A DNA stretch of 64,000 nt. Source: Flavobacterium sp. NG2 (GTDB taxonomy: Bacteria > Bacteroidota > Bacteroidia > Flavobacteriales > Flavobacteriaceae). The position numbers and the translations under genes were made by a program. The stretch is taken from contig NZ_CP139420.1 in the NCBI RefSeq assembly GCF_034119845.1, positions 598,001 through 662,000 of the forward strand, written 5' to 3'. Shown here piece by piece: positions 29,277 to 42,552 of this stretch (position 1 is its first letter; each line of letters begins with the position of its first letter). The notes under the pieces were generated by a model. That model had not been told where the DNA came from, ran no database searches, and saw nothing but the letters and a program-made list of their open reading frames with translations.

Positions 29277-30509
29277 TTAGTGTTTTTTATGTGATTTTCT
29301 ATTGGTAACTAATTCTACCAACATATTAATCCCAAAAGTGATGATAAACAAAATACATCCTAATGCAAATAATGCTTCATAATGCAATCCACCATTTGGC
29401 GCTTCACCTAATTCAGCTGCAATGGTAGCAGGAATTGTTCTAACAGGTGCTAAAAATGAATTCGGAATAACAGCTGCATTACCCGTTACCATCAATACCG
29501 CCATAGTTTCACCAATAGCACGACCAATACCCAAAATAGCTCCTGCAGTAATCCCTGAAGCAGAATATGGAATCACAACTTTATAAATTGTTTGCCAATG
29601 ACTTGCTCCCAAAGCCAAGCTAGCTTCTTTCATTGCTCTAGGTGTATTACGCATAGCATCTTCAGAAATAGTGATGATTGTAGGCAAAGCCATAATCGCT
29701 AACACCACACTTCCTGCTAAAGCCGTTTCTCCAACTGGTAAATTAAAAGTACTTTGTATTAAAGGAACAATAATAACCAAACCAAAGAAACCATAAACTA
29801 CAGATGGAATTCCAGCAAGTAATTCAATTAAAGGCTTTAACAGGTTACGTGTTCTTTTATTAGCTATTTCACTCAAAAATATTGCAGCAGCAAGTCCGAT
29901 AGGTAGAGCAATTAAGATAGCTCCAAAACTTACCCAAAGTGTACCATAGATTAAGGGTTTCACTCCCATTTGAGCAATTGGTTGAGCCGTAGGAAACCAT
30001 TCTTCACCTGACAAAAAACTAGCAACCGTTATTTTATCTATATCTAATTCGACACCAGCAAAGTCTTTTGCCTTATAGGTTTCTGAGAAAAAAGCAATGA
30101 TACCTGGAGTTTTAGCAATAAGTTCATTTATTTTTTGAGGGAAATATTCAAAATTTTCTCCCAATTCTTCTTCAGTATAATAATCTGTAATATCCGAAGT
30201 TCTGAACAATACGATGGCTCTATCTTCACCACCTAGTTCTTTCCAGTTTGTTATCTTTTGATCATAAACATCTTTGACTTGAGAAGGTGATAACTTTTTT
30301 ACTGGATTAGTAGCTTCGACTGCTAACAAAAAACCATCATCAATAGGCTTTCTATTAAAAACACCAGCTCCTTCAATAAATAAAAAAAAGACAATCAACA
30401 CTACTGTAATACTGGTAGTTACACTACTAAGCATCAAGATAGACTCAATTATTTTTTCTTTAATCTGCTTTAAATTTGTTTTCAAATCAGTAAATTTAAT
30501 TTTTGACAA
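29277..30509 (-). CDS. pstC: Phosphate ABC transporter permease PstC with inserted PstS-like periplasmic domain
   Basis: 410 aa, about 90 longer than the usual PstC of about 320. Residues about 27-50 are the first membrane helix, and residues about 185-405 are the normal permease core, with the EAA loop KEASLALGASHWQTIYKVV. Between them (about 58-165) is a soluble segment that resembles the second lobe of PstS: LSPSQVKDVYDQKITNWKEL here against LTREQLEKIYTGEIKNWKEV in the PstS of this window. The phosphate-binding SSSGT of PstS is replaced by SDITD. The frame opens with a TTG at 30509 that lies inside a perfect -7 promoter element, so translation more likely starts at TTG 30485 or ATG 30434. 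It heads the pstC-A-B-phoU operon. Confidence 0.93.
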   Translation of the reverse strand: MSKIKFTDLKTNLKQIKEKIIESILMLSSVTTSITVVLIVFFLFIEGAGVFNRKPIDDGFLLAVEATNPVKKLSPSQVKDVYDQKITNWKELGGEDRAIVLFRTSDITDYYTEEELGENFEYFPQKINELIAKTPGIIAFFSETYKAKDFAGVELDIDKITVASFLSGEEWFPTAQPIAQMGVKPLIYGTLWVSFGAILIALPIGLAAAIFLSEIANKRTRNLLKPLIELLAGIPSVVYGFFGLVIIVPLIQSTFNLPVGETALAGSVVLAIMALPTIITISEDAMRNTPRAMKEASLALGASHWQTIYKVVIPYSASGITAGAILGIGRAIGETMAVLMVTGNAAVIPNSFLAPVRTIPATIAAELGEAPNGGLHYEALFALGCILFIITFGINMLVELVTNRKSHKKH

Positions 30510-30573
30510 AATTACGCCAGACCTAGCCCTCTAATGTTCATACACCATTAACCTTATGTTAACTTAATGTTAA
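30507..30573 (-). promoter_or_regulatory. Putative Pho box and promoter of pstC-pstA-pstB-phoU
   Basis: On the minus strand four direct repeats lie exactly 11 bp apart: TTAACA (30573-30568), TTAACA (30562-30557), TTAATG (30551-30546) and TGAACA (30540-30535). After 20 bp comes TAATTTTG (30514-30507), a perfect -7 element. The layout resembles PhoB/PhoP-type operators, which are tandem half-sites with 11-bp spacing. Confidence 0.7.
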
Positions 30574-30610
30574 GCGAACTGTTTTTGTAAAGCAAGGATT
30601 ACCTAAAAAC

Positions 30611-30638
30611 TAAAAAGGCTACCCAAAATGGATAGCCT
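30611..30638 (-). terminator. Rho-independent terminator of pstS
   Basis: Read on the minus strand, the stem AGGCTATCC / GGGTAGCCT (one G-U pair) is followed by a T-run, 30 bp past the pstS stop. It separates pstS from the pstC operon, which has its own promoter. Confidence 0.85.
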
Positions 30639-30668
30639 CATATAATCATGTAATAATTAACCTTTTAC

Positions 30669-31532
30669 TTAGTTCAATGGTACATATCCTATTTCAGATA
30701 CATTTTTCTGACCAGCTTCAGACAAAGCATAATCAATAATTGATTTTACTTTAGCAGCATTTGTTTTATTATACATGTAAAACAACGGTCTTGAAATTGG
30801 ATATGTTTTATCTTTTGCACTTGCTACAGAAGGCTCAATGAAGTTTTTCCCTTGATCATAAGATACCGCTACTTGCTTCACCTCTTTAGTTTCATAAGCT
30901 AAACCTACGTAACCAATCGCTCCTTTTGTTTGACCTACTGCCTGAACAATAGCTCCTGTTGCAGGTAAACTCAAGATATCCGTTGCGTAGTTTTTCTTAT
31001 CCATAACTTCTTCTTTAAAAAACTCATAAGTTCCTGAAGAAGATTCTCTAGAATAAGCAACAATTTTCTCATCAGCTCCACCTACTTCTTTCCAGTTTTT
31101 AATCTCACCAGTATAAATTTTCTCCAATTGCTCACGAGTCAATTTAGACACACCATTTGCTGGATTAACAATTACTGCTAATGCATCAAAAGCAATAATT
31201 ACTTTTTCGATTTCAGTTTTAGACTCAGCAAATTTTAATTTTTCATCAGTTTTCAAATCTCTAGAAGCCATTGCAATATCAGTAGTTCCATCAATCAAAG
31301 CAGTTAACCCTACACCTGAACCACCACCAACAACAGTAATACTTACATTAGCATCATTCTTCATCAACTCTTCAGCTTCTTTTTGAGCCAAAGGCAAAAC
31401 TGTATCACTTCCTTTGATAGTTACAGAAACTTCAGCCTCAGCATTAGCTTCTCCTTTATTTTCAGTTTTTGCTTTACCGCAACTTAACATACCAATCAAT
31501 GGTAATATTAAAAATAGTTTAAATTTATTCAT
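30669..31532 (-). CDS. pstS: Phosphate-binding lipoprotein PstS
   Basis: 287 aa with a lipoprotein signal peptide (GMLSCGK, acylated Cys18). The phosphate-binding loops are present: KGSDTVLPL (about 41), GGGSGVGLTALIDG with DIAMASRD (about 70-92), and SRESSSGTYEFF (about 160). It captures phosphate in the periplasm for PstC/PstA/PstB. It is transcribed separately from the pstC operon, with its own Pho-box-like promoter and its own terminator, which would allow more PstS than permease. Confidence 0.96.
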   Translation of the reverse strand: MNKFKLFLILPLIGMLSCGKAKTENKGEANAEAEVSVTIKGSDTVLPLAQKEAEELMKNDANVSITVVGGGSGVGLTALIDGTTDIAMASRDLKTDEKLKFAESKTEIEKVIIAFDALAVIVNPANGVSKLTREQLEKIYTGEIKNWKEVGGADEKIVAYSRESSSGTYEFFKEEVMDKKNYATDILSLPATGAIVQAVGQTKGAIGYVGLAYETKEVKQVAVSYDQGKNFIEPSVASAKDKTYPISRPLFYMYNKTNAAKVKSIIDYALSEAGQKNVSEIGYVPLN

Positions 31533-31567
31533 TTGATATTTACTTGTTTTTGATTATTTATTTTGCG

Positions 31568-31612
31568 CAAAAGTAACTACCCAATATTAACTCTATGTTA
31601 AGCCAATATTAT
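31568..31612 (-). promoter_or_regulatory. Putative Pho box and promoter of pstS
   Basis: On the minus strand ATAATA (31612-31607), TTAACA (31601-31596) and TTAATA (31590-31585) are exactly 11 bp apart. After 9 bp comes TACTTTTG (31575-31568), a perfect TAnnTTTG -7 element, 36 bp before the ATG. Confidence 0.7.
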
Positions 31613-31649
31613 TCAATCTTTATACTTTTACAGTTTTATCTATGATTTG

Positions 31650-32858
31650 CTACAACCCAATTTCAACTTGGAAACGAGCAAACCAGTTATTAGAGGTACT
31701 AGAACCAAATTTATTTACAGCATCATAAGACAATTCCGTTTGCACTTTCATTTTATGACCAAATAAATATTTAGATACACCTATAGTATACTCATCCATA
31801 TTTGGACTTTTGGTTTTAATATCGTCATGTACTTTTTGCGTAGAAAAACGACCTATAACTTGATATTCTGACGGAAAAAGATAACTCAATTGAGCATCAT
31901 AACCATGCCCTACAAAAACAGCCTGAGTTTTACTAATATCTGAGGCATCAACAGTTATTGGATCTTTAGCAGCTCTTGACATATAAGCACCTACAGCAGA
32001 CCATCCATTATATTTAAATACAGCATCTACAAATACAGACTTCAAAGTTCTTGACTCATACAAGCTGCTCCCTAACTGTCCTTGAGAACGCAGGGCATTA
32101 TTATTTTGACTAAATGCACCTGAAAGCATTAATTTTGGTGATTTCTCTCTCATCAAATCGGCCTCAAAATTAGAACCGTTTTTAGTAAATGCACCCAAAG
32201 GAAATAATTCTAACTTTCCTGTTAATGCAATTCCATCATCAGATGTTTTTACCCAGTTACGACCTTCTCCTTTAGAAATAGCCCCTTTGAAACCATAATA
32301 AAAACTTTCTTTTTTCACTTTAGCATACTCTACAAAAAATCCAAAATCACGGTCGATATTAAATTTAGAGTTATTAATACTACGGTCAGTAAGCTCTAAT
32401 GACCCTGAAGAAATGACACGTTGGTTATTCCCTGGTAACTTTGTTTGACCAAAGGCAAATGTCAAATCAGAATTAGGATGATAAAAGAATACCCCATCCA
32501 AAATCACATTTCCACTGTTTCCCACAGCTACCGTACCTATATCTCTTGCCGAAAAACCAAGCTCTACTTTGTAACCAAACTTAGGATCAACCACAAAACC
32601 ATCTAGTTTCAATCGCATTCTTCTAATTTCACCTTCAGCCACTCCCGACTTCCCTTCTTCTTTTCCGAATCCAATTCTACTTTGAACTCTAAACCCAATA
32701 TTCATTTGAAACAAACTATCAGCGGCTGTAAAACCTAGTTTCTTTCCTGACATATAATAGTTTTCTAAAATTGACTTTGCTGGTACGGTTTTCTTCACTT
32801 CTTGTGCCATTGTAATTAAAGAAAACAATAGCGAAATACTCAATAAAAATTTTTTCAT
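31650..32858 (-). CDS. OprO/OprP-type phosphate-selective porin
   Basis: 402 aa with a signal peptide ending ITMAQ and alternating beta-strand sequence throughout, ending in a C-terminal Leu after VEIGL. It has features of the OprO/P porin family: MNIGFRVQSRIGFG, EIRRMRLKLDGFVVDPKFGYKVELGF, FAFGQTKLPGNNQR and SLELTDRSINNSKFNIDRDFG. Such porins pass phosphate or polyphosphate through the outer membrane. It lies directly upstream of pstS in the Pho cluster and has its own Pho-box-like promoter, supporting a role in phosphate uptake. Substrate specificity is inferred. Confidence 0.9.
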   Translation of the reverse strand: MKKFLLSISLLFSLITMAQEVKKTVPAKSILENYYMSGKKLGFTAADSLFQMNIGFRVQSRIGFGKEEGKSGVAEGEIRRMRLKLDGFVVDPKFGYKVELGFSARDIGTVAVGNSGNVILDGVFFYHPNSDLTFAFGQTKLPGNNQRVISSGSLELTDRSINNSKFNIDRDFGFFVEYAKVKKESFYYGFKGAISKGEGRNWVKTSDDGIALTGKLELFPLGAFTKNGSNFEADLMREKSPKLMLSGAFSQNNNALRSQGQLGSSLYESRTLKSVFVDAVFKYNGWSAVGAYMSRAAKDPITVDASDISKTQAVFVGHGYDAQLSYLFPSEYQVIGRFSTQKVHDDIKTKSPNMDEYTIGVSKYLFGHKMKVQTELSYDAVNKFGSSTSNNWFARFQVEIGL

Positions 32859-32892
32859 TTTAACAATTAGTTATCATTGTGTTATTACGATG

Positions 32893-32937
32893 CAAAACTA
32901 ATGTTAATAAAAAAGGACGATATTAAATTAACGTTAC
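32893..32937 (-). promoter_or_regulatory. Putative Pho box and promoter of first porin
   Basis: On the minus strand GTAACG (32937-32932) and TTAATA (32926-32921) are 11 bp apart. After 20 bp comes TAGTTTTG (32900-32893), a perfect -7 element. A further TTAACA (32907-32902) lies out of phase between them. This is the weakest of the six Pho-type promoters. Confidence 0.5.
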
Positions 32938-33160
32938 CATAATGAAAACAAAAAGTAATCTAACCCAAAAAGCAAAAATAAAAAATAGTTAACCCCTTTA
33001 TTTACAGGTAATTACAGGCTATTCAGCAAAATCATATGAAAGATAAAATCAACCTGATAATTATTATTTTTATAGGTTTTTTTGTTCATAATGAGTCGAT
33101 TACTCTCCCGAAAATTAATTTTGCAACTAAATATTATATACTAAAAACAATACTTTAACA

Positions 33161-33204
33161 CAAAAAAAAGCTTCTTAAATCTGTTACAGACTTAAGAAGC
33201 TTTA
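33161..33204 (-). terminator. Terminator of second porin gene
   Basis: On the minus strand the long stem AAGCTTCTTAA / TTAAGAAGCTT is followed by eight T's, just after the stop of the porin at 33228. Confidence 0.85.
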
Positions 33205-33227
33205 AATAAGATTAACTTAAATAGATA

Positions 33228-34445
33228 CTAGAAATTAATTTGAAGTTGTAACCTTAATAAGTTTCCAGTTTGATCATTAATAGGTTTAATTGCATCTTCA
33301 TATCTTCTATTAGAAATAGTATAGTCAGCTACTAATTCAACATTTTTATACGGCTGCCATTCTACACCAATTTCTAAATCATTTACTGAATAACTTCTAG
33401 CATCCAATTCTTGTTTTTTTCCACCTCTATACATTTGATACTTAACAAAAGGAAGAATCACTTGTTGCTCTGCTTTCAAATTATAGAAAGCCTGTACATA
33501 TCCACCATGTAATTTTTTTTGCTCAATTGTATTATTAGTTTTGTTATACTCAGGACCTGTTCCAATATTATACTCAGCTTGCAATCCAAAAGGTTTTGGG
33601 TACAATACTATACTTGCCGCAGCACGTTGGTCTAAATATTCACCATTAGGTTTGGTAATTACATTTTTACTAGTACTGATAGACTGCACAACATATTTAC
33701 CAGTATACCCTTGAATTCCCGCCTCAAATACCTGTCCGTTTTTAAATTCAAAAGGATAAGAAACACGACCTACAATGTGTTGGTTATTATTAGCTTCGGC
33801 TCTATTTGCCGTTTGACCATTGTAAACACCAAGACCTACCACACCATAATCCCCTGAACCTTTAAGTCCGTCGCTAACTAATTTAGAGAATAATTCTCTT
33901 TTCCCTTTAGGCGCCCAATAAAACATCACCCCTAAATCACGCTCGTTTGCAACAGCACTATTCAATGCATCATTACGATCTAAGGCCAAACGATTTTGAC
34001 TTGACTGCATATTTTCAAATCCGTAAGGCACTTTACTTTGCCCTACTCTAAATCTAAATTCTTTTTTACTATCTAAAGATATATCAGCATAAGCATCTCT
34101 AATTTGCAAAAAGTTATTACTTGTCGTTGAAGCTGAAGAAGCAAAATCAGGTTGTATGTATATGTACACACGATCATGTACATTACCCGAAAATACTAAA
34201 CGTCCTCTTCGAATAAAAAAACTATTGTTTCCTCCCCAAGATTTATCACATTGCTCACAACCTAAATCAGAATTAGTTTCTAATAGTTTATTATATCTCA
34301 CTTGCATATACCCACGTAAACTAATAGTTTCAAACCATTTTTTAGTCGCTGGAGTTACCTCTTTTTTAACTTCAGTGGTTGTTTGTGCATTAGTAATAGT
34401 CACTAACACCAAGAGAGCGATTACTATAAAAATATTTTTTTTCAT
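33228..34445 (-). CDS. OprO/OprP-type phosphate-selective porin (second)
   Basis: 405 aa with a signal peptide ending TNAQT and a predicted beta-barrel ending LRLQLQINF, whose terminal Phe is typical of outer-membrane proteins. Family features include LRGYMQVRYNKL, FFIRRGRLVFSGNVHDRVYIYIQPDF, RFRVGQSKVPYGFENMQSS and RNDALNSAVANERDLGVMFYW. It is distant from the neighbouring porin at 31650. Two cysteines (CEQC, about 58-61) lie near the N-terminus. It has its own Pho-box-like promoter and terminator and sits between phoR and the other porin, so it is probably a phosphate-starvation porin. Confidence 0.9.
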   Translation of the reverse strand: MKKNIFIVIALLVLVTITNAQTTTEVKKEVTPATKKWFETISLRGYMQVRYNKLLETNSDLGCEQCDKSWGGNNSFFIRRGRLVFSGNVHDRVYIYIQPDFASSASTTSNNFLQIRDAYADISLDSKKEFRFRVGQSKVPYGFENMQSSQNRLALDRNDALNSAVANERDLGVMFYWAPKGKRELFSKLVSDGLKGSGDYGVVGLGVYNGQTANRAEANNNQHIVGRVSYPFEFKNGQVFEAGIQGYTGKYVVQSISTSKNVITKPNGEYLDQRAAASIVLYPKPFGLQAEYNIGTGPEYNKTNNTIEQKKLHGGYVQAFYNLKAEQQVILPFVKYQMYRGGKKQELDARSYSVNDLEIGVEWQPYKNVELVADYTISNRRYEDAIKPINDQTGNLLRLQLQINF

Positions 34446-34539
34446 TGTTAAATCAATTAGCCCCTCATTTTAATTTATAAGCATTACCTTATTTTTTTAA
34501 TGGTGGTTTTTAAATTATTATTATTTTGTTATTTTTTTG

Positions 34540-34595
34540 CAAACATATGACAAGGACAGGTTGCTAATGTTAACTTAATATTAAGATTAGGTTAT
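34540..34595 (-). promoter_or_regulatory. Putative Pho box and promoter of second porin
   Basis: On the minus strand ATAACC (34595-34590), TTAATA (34584-34579) and TTAACA (34573-34568) are exactly 11 bp apart. After 20 bp comes TATGTTTG (34547-34540), a perfect -7 element. Confidence 0.7.
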
Positions 34596-34649
34596 CTAAA
34601 AAACCGATATAATCGCAAGAAAAAACACTCATTTTCACAACTTAACAAA

Positions 34650-34690
34650 TAAAAAAAATGCGACTCAGAATAGACTGAGTCGCATTTTTA
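34650..34690 (-). terminator. Terminator of phoB-phoR
   Basis: A perfect 10-bp stem, TGCGACTCAG / CTGAGTCGCA, with a 6-nt loop and A/T-runs on both sides, 30 bp after the phoR stop. It can work on both strands. Confidence 0.9.
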
Positions 34691-34720
34691 CTGCTACTTT
34701 TAATAAATTATAATGGGGAT

Positions 34721-35803
34721 TTACACCCTTACTTTATTCTCTTTCTTTTTATACATCTTTTCAAGTGTGAACGAAAATTCAGAGCCAACCCCTACTTCAC
34801 TTTCAACATATATTTTCTCTTTATGCGCTTCAACAATGTGTTTTACTATTGCCAATCCTAATCCCGAACCACCTTCTTCTCTAGAACCACTTTTATTTAC
34901 TCTATAAAAACGCTCAAAAAGTCGAGGCAAATGATGCTTTGCAATTCCACCACCATCATCACTTATTCGAACCAAAACTTTTTTCTTAGTTAAATTCACA
35001 ACCGAAACCTCAGTAGAACCATTCTCTTTTCCATACTTAATAGAATTGACAATTAGATTCTCAATAACTTGTTGTATTCTGTCTTTATCTCCCACAACAT
35101 AGTTTGGCAAACTTGGTCTACTTTCAAAACTTAAAGAAATATTCTTCTTATCGGCTTTAATCTCCAGTAGGTCAAAAACGTTTTGAATTAACTCATAAAT
35201 ATCAAATTCTGAATATTCCAGATTCAAATCTCCAGCTTCTAATTTAGTAATCATATCTAAATCTTCCACGATATAAATTAATCGCTCAACCCCTTTTTCG
35301 GCACGTTTTAAATACTTTTTTCGAATCAATTTATCCTCCATTGCACCATCTAAAAGTGTAGAAATATAACCTTGAACAGTAAATAAAGGAGTCTTTAATT
35401 CATGAGAAACATTCCCTAAAAACTCTCTGCGATATTCCTCACGAACCTGAAGCAATTCGATTTCAAGTTTTTTATCTGTAGCAAACTTTTTGATCTCTCT
35501 AGATAAAGTTTCCATATCAGTAGTTATAGGCTGATTGATCAAAGTACTTGCTTCTAATAAAGATACATCATCGTAGATTTTTTTGACACGTCGATATATA
35601 AATCGCTCTACACGATACTGCAAAACTAAAAATGAAAATATAAATAGAATAAAACTAAATATCACCCCCAAAGTAACCAACTTTGACACTGCTGGTTGAT
35701 ACATGATTGCCACTAACAGAATAACAAAGCCTGTAGAAAACATGCTGATGTAAAAAGACGACTTTACAGCAAACTTATATGTTTTTTTAAAACTAATTTT
35801 CAT
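34721..35803 (-). CDS. phoR: PhoR-like sensor histidine kinase
   Basis: 360 aa with two closely spaced membrane segments (residues about 13-32 and 38-58) and almost no periplasmic loop, as in PhoR-type kinases that sense through Pst/PhoU rather than an outside ligand. The phosphoacceptor is His134 in GNVSHELKTPL. The ATPase domain shows NLIVNSIKYG, DDGGGIAKHHLPRLFERF and GSGLGLAIVKHIV. It lies 72 bp after the OmpR-type regulator gene, inside the pst/porin cluster. The PhoR assignment rests on this context, since the kinase domain itself is generic. Confidence 0.87.
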   Translation of the reverse strand: MKISFKKTYKFAVKSSFYISMFSTGFVILLVAIMYQPAVSKLVTLGVIFSFILFIFSFLVLQYRVERFIYRRVKKIYDDVSLLEASTLINQPITTDMETLSREIKKFATDKKLEIELLQVREEYRREFLGNVSHELKTPLFTVQGYISTLLDGAMEDKLIRKKYLKRAEKGVERLIYIVEDLDMITKLEAGDLNLEYSEFDIYELIQNVFDLLEIKADKKNISLSFESRPSLPNYVVGDKDRIQQVIENLIVNSIKYGKENGSTEVSVVNLTKKKVLVRISDDGGGIAKHHLPRLFERFYRVNKSGSREEGGSGLGLAIVKHIVEAHKEKIYVESEVGVGSEFSFTLEKMYKKKENKVRV

Positions 35804-35875
35804 TTTCTAACACCACTGTTATATTCATAAGGAAGAGCAACACAATTCTTTCACGTATAAAAGTAAGCAATCTAG

Positions 35876-36559
35876 CTAAACTTCAAATTTATAACCTACT
35901 CCTTTTATTGTTTTGAATAATTCTTCACCTATTTTCTCTCTAAGCTTACGAATATGCACATCAATAGTTCGTCCACCTACAACGACTTCATTACCCCAAA
36001 CCTTATCGAGTATCTCATCTCTTTTAAAAACCTTACCAGGCTTAGAAGCTAACAGATAGAATAACTCAAATTCTTTTCTTGGCAAAGCAATCTCAAGACC
36101 GTCCATTACAATTTTATATTCTTCACGGTTAATTTCGATACCTCCTACATTAAGTGTTTCGCTATCCTGTTCAGCCTCTACAAGTCTTCGCAACAAAGCT
36201 TTTACTTTACTAACTAATAATTTTGGCTTGATAGGTTTCGTTATATAATCATCAGCACCAACATCAAAACCAGCAACCTGTGAATAATCTTCACTTCTAG
36301 CCGTTAAAAAAGTAATAATCACATTACTTAGTTCGGGAATTTTTCGAATATTCTCGCAAGCCTCCATGCCATCCATTTCAGGCATCATGACGTCCATAAT
36401 AATTAAATCTGGCAGTTCTTTCTTAGCTTTTGCAATGGCTTCTTTCCCGTTACTGGCAGTAACAATTTGGTACCCTTCTTGAGAAAGATTATAGCCTACA
36501 ATCTCTAAAATATCTGGTTCATCATCAACCAATAAAATCTTTGTGTTTTTCTTTTTCAT
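35876..36559 (-). CDS. phoB: PhoB-like response regulator (OmpR family)
   Basis: 227 aa: receiver domain with phosphoacceptor Asp56 (LIIMDVMMPEMDG) and Lys near 108, then a winged-helix DNA-binding domain (residues about 135-227, RTIDVHIRKLREKIG, TIKGVGYKFEV). It should bind the 11-bp direct repeats found at six promoters nearby. The start codon lies only about 8 bp from a -7-like element (TTATTTTG, 36574-36567 on the minus strand), so its mRNA may have a very short leader. It is divergent from the TonB receptor, whose Pho-type repeats lie in the shared gap and could also affect phoB. Confidence 0.9.
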   Translation of the reverse strand: MKKKNTKILLVDDEPDILEIVGYNLSQEGYQIVTASNGKEAIAKAKKELPDLIIMDVMMPEMDGMEACENIRKIPELSNVIITFLTARSEDYSQVAGFDVGADDYITKPIKPKLLVSKVKALLRRLVEAEQDSETLNVGGIEINREEYKIVMDGLEIALPRKEFELFYLLASKPGKVFKRDEILDKVWGNEVVVGGRTIDVHIRKLREKIGEELFKTIKGVGYKFEV

Positions 36560-36685
36560 AAAATAGCAAAATAAGGTTAAATCATTGGTATTTGTTGGTT
36601 TTTTAAAGCCAATGATTACAATTGCGATTGTAAATATAACAATAAAATAATCGTGGTAAAGACGGATTTACGCTAATTTAATATG

Positions 36686-36763
36686 ATAACCTTTTGTTAA
36701 TATTTAACGAACGTAATCGTAACAACTGATTAACTTCAACTTTACAATAAGCCCGTTACTTTG
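36686..36763 (+). promoter_or_regulatory. Putative extended Pho box and promoter of TonB receptor
   Basis: Six direct repeats lie at exact 11-bp spacing: ATAACC (36686), TTAATA (36697), CGAACG (36708), GTAACA (36719), TTAACT (36730) and TTTACA (36741). Nine bp later comes TTACTTTG (36756-36763), a -7 element with one mismatch to TAnnTTTG, 19 bp before the ATG. Confidence 0.7.
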
Positions 36764-36782
36764 CAAAAAATTTAATAAAACT

Positions 36783-39542
36783 ATGAAACTTAAATTATTC
36801 ATTTTAACATTTTTCATCTGTACACTTTCATTCGCACAAAGCAAAGGCACCATTACTGGAGTACTTACTGATAAAGAGTCAAACAATGAAACTTTACCTT
36901 TTGCAAACGTAGTTCTAAAAGGAACAAAAGCAAATACAACTACAGATATAGACGGTAAATACACTTTATCTGTTTTACCTGGAAACTATATTATTCAATT
37001 TAGCTTTGTAGGGTACGAACCTTTAGAGGTCCCTGTAACAGTAGTTGCAGATAAAACAATAATTATCAATAAAGCACTTTCAGCTGGCGGATATAAACTA
37101 GAAGATGTTATTATTACCACTAAAGTAAATAGAGAAAAAGAAACAGCTCTACTATTAAATCAAAAAAATGCCGTTGAAATCAAACAATCTATTGGAGCAC
37201 AGGAATTATCTCGAAAAGGGGTTAGTGACGTCGCATCAGCAGTAACTAAAGTAAGTGGAGTAACAAAACAAGAAGGCTCAGGAAGTGTTTTTGTTAGAGG
37301 ACTAGGAGATCGCTATAATGTAACAACCTTAAATGGATTGCCATTACCATCTAACAACCCAAAAAATAAAAACATCCTTTTAGATATATTCTCAACAGAT
37401 ATTGTTGAATCCGTAGGAATTAGTAAAACATTTGAATCTCAAAATTATGCTGACTTTGGAGGAGCTAATGTTGATATTATATCTAAAAAAATGAATGGAG
37501 CTTCATTTATACAAGTTGGTGTAGGAGTTGGATCAAATACTAATGTAGCAAAACTAGACAACTTCTACTTACAAGATGGACCTTCCTACCTTGGTTTCAA
37601 CAAAATATCTGCTCCAAACAATCCTTTGTTACCATATAATTTTAGTACTAGCTGGGATAGAAAAGAACGAAAAAACACTTTAAACAATAGCCTTTCTTTA
37701 TCAGCAGGAAAAAAATTTAACGTAGGTGAAAATGGTAGTATTGGTACTTTCATAACTGCCGGATTTGATGCTGATAACAAATATAACGAAGGTATTTACA
37801 GAACAACAATCACGGCTCAAGGTGCTGCCAATACTGATTACTTTAGAAAAACATTTGAATACAACACCAACTCAACTGTGATGGGAACCGCTGATTATAA
37901 AATCAACAATAACAACTCAATCCTTTACACTTCTTTATTTTTAAACTCAACTTCACAAGATTACAGTGAATACGAAGGATTCAACATTGAATTCCCAGGA
38001 TTAGACCAAATTGGTTTTATTAAACGTGGTACTTTTAACAAAACACAGTTAATTGTAAATCAATTATTAGGAAAACACAAATACAACGAAAAATTCAATA
38101 CAAACTGGGCGTTAGGCTATACAATCCTTGACAACACTATTCCTGACCGTATGCAAAACACTTTTGTTCCCTCAAGTGACGGATCTACGGATTATACTTT
38201 CTTCAAAAACTCAAGTATAAACAACCACCGTTATTTTCAAAGCTTGAAAGAAAAAGAATGGTCAGCAAACGTTTCAGGAACGTACAACTTCTCTAAAACA
38301 ACTGATGATTCATTTAAAGGAAAAGCCACATTAGGTTATTCAGGCAAATTGAAAGATGTTAATTTTAATTCTCAACAATACTCCTTTTTTCCAGTGACAA
38401 ATAAAACTCTTTTCACAAAAGAGGGATTCAATAATACTGATTTATACTTGAATGCGAGTAATTTTGACTTTACAAGCGGAGATAGTTCAAGTAAATTAAC
38501 TCAATTTTACAATGGACACTTGAATATTCATGCTCTTTACGGAAATGTACAATATGATTTCACCGAAAAACTTTCTATCATCTTAGGAGGTCGATTTGAA
38601 CAAATTGAACAATATGTATACTACGTAAGTCTAGATGCACCTGACGGAACAGGAAGCACTTATTCACCAGTAAAGTTTCTACCAAGTATCATTGCTAAGT
38701 ATAAGTTAAATGACAAACAAAATTTAAAATTTGCAGCAAGTAATACCTATACTTTACCTCAATTTAAAGAAAAAGTAAAAATCCTGTTTCAAGAAGTAGG
38801 ACAAAGTTATGAAGGTAACGATAAGCTGTATGCCTCTACTAATTACAATGCCGATTTAAGCTGGGAATTATACCCTAGTAATGACGAAATTCTTTCGGTA
38901 ACAGCTTTTGGAAAATTAATACAAAATCCAATTAACGAAATGTTCACTAACTCTTCTTCAGGTAACATTACTTGGGCAAATACAGGAGAGAAAGCCGTAG
39001 TAGCTGGAATTGAATTAGAATTTAGAAAGAATATTTTTGAAAACATTGATGCTAATAATTTAAAACAAAAATTAGCTTTTGGCTTTAACGGTTCTTACAT
39101 GTACCAAAATATGGATCTAAGCAATGACAAAGTATTAAAAGAAAATGGTTTTGGTGCTAACTTCACTTATAAAAACTCAAATCTTTCAGGTGCAGCTGAT
39201 TTCTTAGTGAATACCGACATATCGTACACTAAAGAATTTAAAAACGACAAAGATCTTACTGCAACTTTAACCTATGCATATGTTTCAGACAAACTAGCCG
39301 TAATAGGTACATCCGAAAGAGGAAACCTGATCGATAAATCAATTGGAAGATTAGACTTTATTATAAAATCTAATCTGACTAAAAAACTAAATCTAGGTTT
39401 GTCATATAAAAACATATTAAATCCAGTTTACAAAAGATTTACAGACCAAAGCCAAGCTCCAGTAATAAAAACAGCTGATGTACTAGCTAGCTCTTACAAA
39501 ATAGGTTCAAACTTAAGTTTATCTTTAAAATACAAATTCTAA
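36783..39542 (+). CDS. TonB-dependent outer-membrane receptor
   Basis: 919 aa with a signal peptide ending TLSFAQ. Residues about 23-105 are a carboxypeptidase-regulatory-like domain (GVLTDKESNNETLPFANVVLKG, DIDGKYTLSVLPGNY). The plug follows at about 130-240 (SVFVRGLGDRYNVTTLNGLPLPS), then a 22-strand-type barrel to the C-terminal LSLKYKF. It lacks the SusC signature arrangement and has no SusD neighbour. The promoter carries six Pho-type repeats, so it is probably induced by phosphate starvation and imports a phosphorus-containing compound. The substrate is unknown. Its probable partner is the lipoprotein encoded next, which has the same type of promoter. Confidence 0.9.
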   Translation: MKLKLFILTFFICTLSFAQSKGTITGVLTDKESNNETLPFANVVLKGTKANTTTDIDGKYTLSVLPGNYIIQFSFVGYEPLEVPVTVVADKTIIINKALSAGGYKLEDVIITTKVNREKETALLLNQKNAVEIKQSIGAQELSRKGVSDVASAVTKVSGVTKQEGSGSVFVRGLGDRYNVTTLNGLPLPSNNPKNKNILLDIFSTDIVESVGISKTFESQNYADFGGANVDIISKKMNGASFIQVGVGVGSNTNVAKLDNFYLQDGPSYLGFNKISAPNNPLLPYNFSTSWDRKERKNTLNNSLSLSAGKKFNVGENGSIGTFITAGFDADNKYNEGIYRTTITAQGAANTDYFRKTFEYNTNSTVMGTADYKINNNNSILYTSLFLNSTSQDYSEYEGFNIEFPGLDQIGFIKRGTFNKTQLIVNQLLGKHKYNEKFNTNWALGYTILDNTIPDRMQNTFVPSSDGSTDYTFFKNSSINNHRYFQSLKEKEWSANVSGTYNFSKTTDDSFKGKATLGYSGKLKDVNFNSQQYSFFPVTNKTLFTKEGFNNTDLYLNASNFDFTSGDSSSKLTQFYNGHLNIHALYGNVQYDFTEKLSIILGGRFEQIEQYVYYVSLDAPDGTGSTYSPVKFLPSIIAKYKLNDKQNLKFAASNTYTLPQFKEKVKILFQEVGQSYEGNDKLYASTNYNADLSWELYPSNDEILSVTAFGKLIQNPINEMFTNSSSGNITWANTGEKAVVAGIELEFRKNIFENIDANNLKQKLAFGFNGSYMYQNMDLSNDKVLKENGFGANFTYKNSNLSGAADFLVNTDISYTKEFKNDKDLTATLTYAYVSDKLAVIGTSERGNLIDKSIGRLDFIIKSNLTKKLNLGLSYKNILNPVYKRFTDQSQAPVIKTADVLASSYKIGSNLSLSLKYKF

Positions 39543-39565
39543 TAACGTCATAAAATAACAAGTAC

Positions 39566-39602
39566 AAAAATGGGGAGTTGATAATCAACTCCCCATTTTT
39601 TT
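39566..39602 (+). terminator. Terminator of TonB receptor gene
   Basis: A perfect 11-bp stem, TGGGGAGTTGA / TCAACTCCCCA, with a 3-nt loop and a T-run, 25 bp after the stop codon. Confidence 0.92.
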
Positions 39603-39661
39603 ATGCCTTAAAAACAGGTGTAAATTTAACGTTAATGAAAAATTTTAAAAAACTGAAATCC

Positions 39662-39717
39662 TTAACAGCAAAGTAATAATCGCTTAACCTCATAAAAACT
39701 ATAACTATGTTTCTTTG
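39662..39717 (+). promoter_or_regulatory. Putative Pho box and promoter of beta-helix lipoprotein
   Basis: TTAACA (39662), GTAATA (39673) and TTAACC (39684) lie exactly 11 bp apart. After 20 bp comes TTTCTTTG (39710-39717), a -7-like element with one mismatch. The spacing equals that at pstC and both porins. Confidence 0.6.
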
Positions 39718-39752: not shown

Positions 39753-40874
39753 ATGAAAAAATCAATTTTAGCAATTTTAACGGTAGCAACCATTGCATTT
39801 ACAAGCTGTACTAGTGATAATAATACAGAAACAACTTCTTCAACTGCTTTTGATTTAAAAGTGAATGATTTAAAAGGTGAGATTACAAACAAAGAAACTG
39901 TAACTTTAGACGGTACAAAAACCTACACATTAACAGGTGGATTAATCGTTAGATCTGGAGCTTCATTAGTAATTCCTGCTGGAACAATAATTAAATCTGA
40001 CCCAACAGCTGACACTGAAAAAGCTAAAACTTTATTTATTGCTGTAGAAAGAGGTGCAAAAATCTTCATCAACGGTACAGCTGCTAAACCTGTAGTAATG
40101 ACATCAGGAAAAGATGTACCTACTGAAGGAAACTGGGGTGGTTTAATTATCTGTGGAGATGCAAAAGTAAACACTGGTGACAATGGAACATCTGAAGTAG
40201 GTGGATTATTGTACGGAGGAAACAATAACGATGATTCATCTGGGAAAATCAACTATTTGAAGATTTCTTACACTGGATCTAAATTTAGTGACAGTAAAGA
40301 ATACAACGGTGTTTCTTTCTTTGGAGTAGGTAGAGGAACTGAAGTATCTAACATCTATACTTTTGAAAGTGGTGATGATGCAGTAGAGTTCTTTGGTGGT
40401 GCAGTAAATGCTTCTAATTTAGTACTTGTAAATTCTTATGATGATTCATTGGATTTCGCTGATGGATACATCGGAACAATTACAAATGTTTACATCAATG
40501 GTGTATCTTATGGAGGAGTTGAAGGATCTAACAATGGTCAAAACGATATCGCTTTACCAATGACTGATGCTAAAATCTCTAACATCTCAATTGTAAAAGG
40601 ATCAGCTGCTAAATTTACAGCTTCTGAAAAAGCAATCAACTTTAAAGAAGGTGGTGGAAAACAAACTTACACAAACTTATTTGTTGACGGGATTCCAGTA
40701 TTTGCTAAATTAGACACAAATTCAGGAGCTACAGCTAGAATTGCTGCAGGAGATTTCAAAGTAAACGGAGTAAACTTTGTTACTGCAAACAATACTACTG
40801 CTGCTTATGTAACTAATCAAACTGGAGCTGGAAACGGTGCTACTCTACCTACTTGGGCAGACTGGACAAAATAA
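39753..40874 (+). CDS. Predicted beta-helix surface lipoprotein, Pho-associated
   Basis: 373 aa from ATG 39753, chosen over an upstream in-frame ATG at 39717 because it starts a good lipoprotein signal (IAFTSCTSD) and the upstream one overlaps the -7-like element. The mature protein begins with an acidic, Ser/Thr-rich tether. It then has repeated short strands with Gly/Asn turns (GGLIVRSGASLVIPAGTII, VERGAKIFINGTAAKPVVM, GNWGGLIICGDAKVN, ESGDDAVEFFGGAVNASNLV), the look of a right-handed parallel beta-helix. I do not recognise a named enzyme family and see no catalytic motif. It lies 210 bp after the TonB receptor, has its own Pho-type promoter, and probably works with that receptor (inference). 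Confidence 0.8.
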   Translation: MKKSILAILTVATIAFTSCTSDNNTETTSSTAFDLKVNDLKGEITNKETVTLDGTKTYTLTGGLIVRSGASLVIPAGTIIKSDPTADTEKAKTLFIAVERGAKIFINGTAAKPVVMTSGKDVPTEGNWGGLIICGDAKVNTGDNGTSEVGGLLYGGNNNDDSSGKINYLKISYTGSKFSDSKEYNGVSFFGVGRGTEVSNIYTFESGDDAVEFFGGAVNASNLVLVNSYDDSLDFADGYIGTITNVYINGVSYGGVEGSNNGQNDIALPMTDAKISNISIVKGSAAKFTASEKAINFKEGGGKQTYTNLFVDGIPVFAKLDTNSGATARIAAGDFKVNGVNFVTANNTTAAYVTNQTGAGNGATLPTWADWTK

Positions 40875-42522: not shown

Positions 42523-42552
42523 TTGAAGCTCCATTTTTTTAGATTATATTTG
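42523..42552 (+). promoter_or_regulatory. Promoter of Bax-inhibitor-1 family gene
   Basis: TTG (42523-42525), 19 bp, then TATATTTG (42545-42552): an exact match to the Bacteroidota promoter at ideal spacing, 22 bp before the ATG. Confidence 0.75.

Follow-up and report, generated by a model that had tools for sequence, protein, structure and literature searches.

The 64,000-nucleotide stretch of the Flavobacterium sp. NG2 chromosome analyzed here (positions 598,001 to 662,000 of contig NZ_CP139420.1; hereafter the window), from a genome of 4.15 Mb in one contig, carries a phosphate-acquisition locus. Its minus strand encodes phoU, pstB, pstA, pstC, pstS, two porins, a PhoR-like kinase and a PhoB-like regulator, and its plus strand a TonB-dependent receptor (TBDT) and a lipoprotein (Table 1). 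Six promoters of this locus display TTAACA-like hexamers repeated in tandem ahead of a -7 element. Such arrays, with a fixed distance rule, precede phosphate genes in Flavobacterium and in a part of the class Bacteroidia, and, as judged from sequence, they are most likely docking sites for PhoB.

Table 1. Genes, repeat arrays and -7 elements of the phosphate locus, and the small RNA (sRNA)-type unit found in other loci. Positions are those of the window unless a locus is named; the distance of a unit is the number of bp from the end of its hexamer to the start of the -7 box.
Feature	Position	Strand	Remarks
PstC permease	29277..30509	-	TIGR02138 299.5 bits (cut-off 196.45); pstA, pstB and phoU downstream of pstC
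pstC -7 element	30507..30514	-	TAATTTTG
pstC array	30535..30573	-	TTAACA, TTAACA, TTAATG, TGAACA at 53, 42, 31, 20 bp
PstS, phosphate-binding protein	30669..31532	-	TIGR02136 260.6 bits (cut-off 206.6)
pstS -7 element	31568..31575	-	TACTTTTG
pstS array	31585..31612	-	ATAATA, TTAACA, TTAATA at 31, 20, 9 bp
Porin 1	31650..32858	-	weak porin match only (NF040900 28.6 bits, cut-off 150); without Pfam match
Porin 1 -7 element	32893..32900	-	TAGTTTTG
Porin 1 operator	32921..32937	-	GTAACG, TTAATA at 31, 20 bp; two units only, weakest of the six
Porin 2, phosphate-selective porin O/P	33228..34445	-	PF07396, 134.3 bits
Porin 2 -7 element	34540..34547	-	TATGTTTG
Porin 2 array	34568..34595	-	ATAACC, TTAATA, TTAACA at 42, 31, 20 bp
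PhoR-like histidine kinase	34721..35803	-	HisKA, HATPase_c
PhoB-like OmpR-family response regulator	35876..36559	-	Response_reg + Trans_reg_C; proposed binder
TonB-receptor operator	36686..36746	+	TTTACA, TTAACT, GTAACA at 9, 20, 31 bp; also TTAATA at 53, ATAACC at 64
TonB receptor -7 element	36756..36763	+	TTACTTTG
TonB-dependent receptor	36783..39542	+	CarboxypepD_reg domain
Lipoprotein operator	39662..39689	+	TTAACA, GTAATA, TTAACC at 42, 31, 20 bp
Lipoprotein -7 element	39710..39717	+	TTTCTTTG
Lipoprotein	39753..40874	+	without Pfam match
Candidate sRNA-type unit	about position 1500 of L121-L123, L128-L130, L133, L135-L144, L146, L148

An initial annotation of the window had described hexamers at 11-bp spacing before the -7 box of six phosphate promoters, with the last unit 9 or 20 bp away from it. 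Both the repeats and the distances are borne out base by base, with the caveat that the 20-bp unit of pstC is degenerate and its nearest good unit lies at 31 bp. As had also been claimed, a TTG that begins 19-21 bp ahead of the box is absent from all six promoters, the TTG starts less than 40 bp before it being those at 31 and 9 bp in pstS and at 6 bp in porin 2. The 70 bp preceding each of the six boxes contain 24 DTAAY units in all; 18 of them fall at phase 9 modulo 11, and each of the remaining phases holds two at most; across 5000 dinucleotide shuffles no phase reached 18, the maximum being 6. When all T[AT]nnTTTG boxes on both strands of the window were used as a control (n = 273), seven were found to have at least two adjacent in-phase units at phase 9, namely the six promoters and one further box at 42545, and four to have three. 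At each of the ten other phases, none or one of the 273 boxes has two adjacent units and none has three.

The same arrangement is conserved among orthologues, which were collected from 80 PhoB loci together with 250 bp of upstream sequence. Three-unit arrays were scored by a DTAAY count that is blind to spacing, at a threshold of at least 14 of 15 positions (or, more loosely, 13 of 15); this count replaced a first matrix, trained mostly on TBDT promoters, which under-scored TTAAT arrays. TTAACA-like pairs peak at 11 bp upstream of the TBDT genes (76 versus 3.5 in shuffles) and of pstS (8 versus 0.6), and such 11-bp pairs are absent from the upstream regions of pstA and pstB and occur once each in those of phoU and phoR. 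At a spacing of 11 bp and the stricter threshold, arrays precede 46/52 TBDT, 15/16 porin 2 and 7/9 pstS genes, as against 5/222 background genes; the TBDT set also has 26 at spacing 8, which arise from a second conserved block further upstream. In an earlier background set the best-scoring regions, judged by position, seemed to belong mainly to lipoprotein genes adjoining the TonB receptor and to intergenic regions of phoB; the later background sets leave out genes within 6.5 kb of phoB.

The arrays also recur in gene families beyond those first described. First, PF05787 matched 30 of 150 Flavobacterium genomes, nine of them strongly, and these nine were taken as the PhoX set. A weakly matching group of about 500 aa, which scored low where its upstream regions were read, was not counted as PhoX. 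A protein of 605-615 aa lies directly upstream of PhoX in 9/9 cases; the one tested is a CCP_MauG protein (PF03150), the Pfam family given for Fjoh_2477, the partner of the PhoX Fjoh_2478 of Flavobacterium johnsoniae, in PMC8115612. The first gene of this operon is preceded by an array in 7/9 cases at spacing 11 and in 0/9 at spacings 8-10 and 12-15. In all seven the -7 box is exactly 20 bp from the array (with a further box at 6 in one case), and the two operons lacking a full array have in-phase units at 20, 31 and 53.

Second, TIGR02136 was used to gather PstS-family genes outside the order Flavobacteriales, as given by kinship labels, from 197 Bacteroidia genomes, the pstS of the genome itself and of its genus being removed; 66 of the 68 upstream regions were usable, two loci having been dropped for want of a usable frame. 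A TTAACA-like 11-bp pair is present in 24/66 (shuffle mean 2.6, maximum 5 in 50), the next-best pair spacing being 22 bp (n = 10). With at least 14 of 15 positions, 20/66 have an array at spacing 11 and 0-2 at the other spacings, and with 13 of 15 a three-unit array is found in 24/66. All 17 boxes lie at 9, 20 or 31 bp from the array (nine, six and two, respectively) and come from 13 families by kinship labels; those at spacings 9, 10, 12 and 13 are few and scattered.

Third, among the 30 best matches to the window lipoprotein at phoBR loci, of which 29 were usable and one was dropped, arrays occur in 28/29 at 13 of 15 positions and in 20/29 at 14 of 15. Their boxes stand at 20 bp in 20 cases, at 9 in four, at 42 in one and at 7 and 11 in one each, amounting to 25/27 at 9, 20 or 42. 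Twenty orphan lipoproteins, hand-picked from the listed matches and mostly weaker ones encoded away from the phoBR locus, have arrays in 12/20 (14 of 15), and all 12 have a box at 31 bp, two with an additional off-register box. Arrays in background regions (38/205) have 16 boxes, spread over ten phases. Finally, a gene-blind scan of 51 Flavobacterium genomes for three exact units and a box at a gap of 5-34 bp returned 66 matches versus 12 for the reversed pattern, with 31 of the 66 in phase 9 (21 at 31 bp, six at 20 and four at 9). Among the phase-9 loci that were inspected are those of pstC and pstS, of lipoproteins, of the PhoX operon, of a DUF47 (PhoU_div) protein and of a choice-of-anchor I lipoprotein of 493 aa.

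In the Flavobacterium sp. NG2 genome itself, the strict two-unit pattern with a box at a gap of 5-34 bp has 19 matches versus 15 for its reversed form, at scattered distances, and only three are in register: pstS at 9, porin 2 at 20 and pstC at 31 bp. The initial annotation would have been undermined by a pattern matching promoters of all kinds equally; as it is, the in-register strict matches of this genome are confined to the present locus. Two patterns allowing up to three mismatches have as their top matches pstS and the TonB receptor in one case and porin 2 and pstS in the other, with totals that we count as no excess over the reversed controls (13 versus 19 and 95 versus 88). With one mismatch, the two-hexamer pattern is not enriched in this genome (79 versus 116 reversed), and hence the hexamer pair alone is useless as a marker.

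Several genes related to those behind the arrays are reported to respond to low phosphate. We paired F. johnsoniae genes with the families considered here by gene order and family; Table 1 of PMC8115612, in which the column is headed FC and the text uses log2, gives for low phosphate 8.0 for the TBDT Fjoh_0545, 9.9 for FII (Fjoh_0546), 14.5 for FI and 11.6 for FIII. Fjoh_0545 is the TonB receptor of the phoBR operon and Fjoh_0546 the lipoprotein adjoining it. The same paper reports 9.6 and 12.5 for Fjoh_2477-2478 (MauG-like and PhoX) and 3.1 for PhoB. In Bacteroides fragilis, pstC expression without phoB is described as a trace only, and a gel shift with PhoB is reported for a 512-bp fragment of the pstC promoter (PMC3547664).

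Taken together, these are tandem 11-bp direct repeats; they lie before phosphate-uptake and phosphatase genes more often than before other genes, hold a fixed helical register to the core promoter in the PstS-family and PhoX sets alike, and are encoded alongside a PhoB-family regulator and its kinase. Accordingly, we posit with good confidence that they constitute a Pho box of Bacteroidia, read by phosphorylated PhoB at a spacing of 9 + 11k bp to the -7 box. The interpretation given in the initial annotation thus stands as regards an operator resembling a Pho box, located at phosphate genes and in phase with the -7 element. The repeats and their register recur across gene families and a part of the class, and it is from them that we infer PhoB binding and its geometry. 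Promoter coordinates are estimated by analogy with Flavobacterium psychrophilum, in which the -7 box is placed at about -12 to -5 (PMC9723704). On this model, half-sites of the form (T/G/A)TAA(C/T)A would be arranged head to tail every 11 bp, with each unit taken up by a single PhoB protomer and all protomers lined up along the same helix face; 11-bp steps nearly preserve that face, which fits the need of a head-to-tail PhoB row. The promoter-proximal unit would stand 9 + 11k bp (k = 0, 1, 2) before a TAnnTTTG -7 box, and therefore the activator would always face RNA polymerase at the same angle. At k = 0 the proximal unit would occupy about -27 to -22, with the preceding unit covering the -33 region; at k = 1 it would occupy about -38 to -33, the array ending at about -33; and at k = 2 about -49 to -44, the array ending at about -44, which may leave room for a -33 element to persist. 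When phosphate is low, PhoB would be phosphorylated by PhoR and would induce the pst operon, the genes for the porins, the TonB receptor and the lipoproteins, the PhoX operon and phoB.

The further proposal of the initial annotation, that the array replaces the -33 contact, would fit a part of the promoters. Of the 96 boxes with arrays at 9 or 20 bp, three have a TTG that starts 19-21 bp before the box, whereas in the 31-bp class one starts 19 bp before it in 10/14, 12 of these 14 being one gene family. Promoters with k = 0 or 1 are thus plausible candidates for such a replacement, which may not apply at k = 2. Bacteroidota matter as scavengers of phosphate and of organophosphates (PMC8115612). 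With half-site, period and register defined, the regulon becomes predictable from sequence, and the geometry of an activator on a -7/-33 promoter becomes testable.

There are parallels to this operator in better-known systems. In Bacillus subtilis, of another phylum and with another promoter type, the PhoP half-site TT(A/T/C)ACA is nearly the same as the one here and has the same 11-bp period. In Escherichia coli, the distance from the Pho box to the -10 box is 10 bp, which matches the k = 0 geometry. The E. coli PhoB box comprises two 11-nt direct repeats with the core CTGTCAT (PMC4415409), and thus shares with the present arrays the tandem 11-bp repeats, a PhoB/OmpR-family regulator, and pst and phosphatase targets; it differs in that the half-site here is TAAC/T rather than TGTCA, the promoter is of the -7 TAnnTTTG type, there are three offsets one unit apart, and three or more units are common. 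Within the phylum, B. fragilis has a pstC promoter that is bound by PhoB, and expression of its pstC depends on PhoB, although the account of this in PMC3547664 concerns the 512-bp fragment only and defines no site in it.

Several observations weigh against a Pho box as described above. An RprY-type regulator of the same order has been published with a TTTAACA core, a half-site that the present arrays share. The OprP-like porin Fjoh_0542 of F. johnsoniae is listed in PMC8115612 as not induced by low phosphate (-1.3, FDR 0.245), yet the porin 2 promoter carries the array in 15/16 relatives. Arrays are lacking (at 13 of 15 positions) from 42/66 PstS-family regions outside the order, a number of which belong to further PstS copies in the same genomes. 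Four boxes in the Pho-locus sets are at phase 10, and one background box is at phase 9. In the gene-blind scan 35/66 matches are off register, with 13 at 23 bp, four at 15 and the rest scattered, and a sensor-kinase gene follows the array in six of the seven 23-bp loci that were inspected. The array alone is also not specific, for 22 of 30 loci read with an exact TAACA triplet represent a single candidate sRNA-type unit. The best NCBIfam matches of the PhoB-like regulator, the PhoB models TIGR02154 (219.8 bits, cut-off 296.2) and NF053854 (212.6 bits, cut-off 270), both fall below their cut-offs, a point that concerns the protein model and not the operator. Lastly, the counts overstate independence because the sequences share descent.

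The alternative that deserves most attention is that a different regulator of the OmpR family, first and foremost the RprY-type protein of this genome (L221), reads the arrays, either alone or along with PhoB, such that there would be no dedicated Pho box; we regard this as unlikely. The genome has only three PF00486 matches, the PhoB-like regulator being one of them. The idea draws primarily on Riemerella anatipestifer, likewise of the Flavobacteriales, whose 'PhoP' has a DAP-seq motif with TTTAACA as its most conserved part, around 579 of 583 peaks, likened in the same report to ArcA, and no rule of phasing was found there for the motif (PMC9603813). This is the same core as in our arrays, and deletion of that 'PhoP' with its kinase raised pstS 8-fold (PMC5399024). 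The protein, which we took from genome G652 with exact matches to six published primers, is 59% identical to L221 and 34% to PhoB, and scores 293 bits with the NCBIfam RprY model (cut-off 370) versus 174 and 156 with PhoB models. By these measures, the system published as PhoPR is RprXY-type rather than an orthologue of the PhoBR of the window, and the published motif therefore belongs to a paralogue; this published 'PhoP' of the order is accordingly a regulator distinct from PhoB. The statement in the initial annotation that no operator has been described for this phylum needs amending in view of that motif, but it remains apt for PhoB itself, a search of open-licence papers having found no PhoB site for Bacteroidota.

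The register argues against an RprY-type reader. In register 9 modulo 11, the loci read lie at phosphate-type genes, whereas at the regulator's own promoter the register differs: the rprX promoter of this genome has two units at 26 bp (the same phase as 15; C1:3263659-3263709), the array of the rprX orthologue in L333 lies at 15 bp, and those of a paralogous family of kinases lie at 23 bp. The R. anatipestifer kinase promoter has no 11-bp array within 200 bp (14 of 15 positions). Furthermore, according to PMC3547664, pstC of B. fragilis requires PhoB and not its second-best homologue BF2185. The half-sites are common to several systems, and it is the register together with the gene set that marks the phosphate promoters. 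TTAAT arrays at 15 or 23 bp were seen before sensor-kinase genes in L328, L333, L340, L341, L342, L346 and L347; these kinases are RprX-type or of a second family that often faces an outer-membrane-protein-like gene. Such off-register arrays possibly reflect self-regulation by other two-component systems that use the same half-site in another register.

Two other explanations dispense with a regulator altogether. It is very improbable that the repeats are an upstream promoter element or a curvature signal for the polymerase acting without an activator: the fixed register to the -7 box and the TA-rich sequence would suit this, but the discrete offsets of 9, 20 and 31 bp, together with a TAAC/T core conserved at 11-bp intervals, correspond to tandem half-sites of the PhoB family, the arrays are rare in background promoters, and several relatives of the target genes are phosphate-regulated (PMC8115612). 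That the repeats are mere chance or helical A-tract periodicity in AT-rich intergenic DNA with its common TAAY half-sites is hardly credible and already refuted at the sequence level, for, even though arrays passing the looser threshold turn up in background upstream regions at every spacing from 8 to 15 (12-29/222) and one-mismatch pairs show no genome-wide excess, the phosphate gene sets tested are set apart by their spacing of 11 and their phase of 9, and the shuffles never match the observed count.

We tentatively raise an extension of the Pho-box reading. Several Bacteroidia two-component regulators might use one and the same TAAC/T half-site at 11-bp spacing, with the register to the -7 box, rather than the sequence, separating their regulons. 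In such a scheme 9 + 11k would be the address of PhoB, and distances of 15, 21 and 23 bp would denote other regulons, among them one that includes a conserved candidate small RNA. The value of k would be largely fixed per family, with k = 0 for pstS and the TBDTs, k = 1 for PhoX and the phoBR-locus lipoproteins and k = 2 for the orphan lipoproteins. If true, a short PhoB filament, lengthened by whole protomers, would activate promoters that have a -33 element or promoters that lack one, according to the value of k.

The candidate small RNA emerged from a search of the 150 Flavobacterium genomes for an exact TAACA triplet (54 matches versus 20 reversed). The noncoding unit spans about 80 nt. 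Three TAACA repeats at 11 bp are followed, after a 21-bp gap, by a -7 box, a conserved UUUGGUUAGGGUUAGUUA-like sequence and a hairpin resembling a terminator. The copy in L128 comes after a DUF4197 gene (PF13852). Its box is 21 bp from the array in 21 loci and 20 bp in one, and because it lies off the PhoB register by one base we do not assign it to PhoB. The conserved unit is a candidate small RNA, possibly the published Rfp18. A search of 14 of these loci against Rfam gave no match at the unit, and one Flavo-1 match elsewhere in L135. Starting from the RNA motif, the unit and array were found together in 16/30 loci with the box at 20 or 21 bp, 13 of these 16 having been found already; the motif alone is not specific, its reversed form being commoner than the motif itself, and it has no exact match in the Flavobacterium sp. 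NG2 genome.

Further features of the locus were observed. Between phoB and the TonB receptor there is a second conserved block (window about 36660-36715; upstream of the TBDT gene in L009-L088) of the form TTAACn-N5-TTTAAT, with a TAACA 19 bp after its first unit. It is out of step with the proximal array and may serve phoB itself. As for pstC, the TTG start of the open reading frame list (30509) falls within the gene's own -7 box, and the ATG at 30434, which is the frame start in relatives (L331, L339, L348 and L350), is probably the true start. Residues 58-165 in the N-terminal part of PstC, ahead of the permease part, match the phosphate-binding-protein family (PF12849, TIGR02136).

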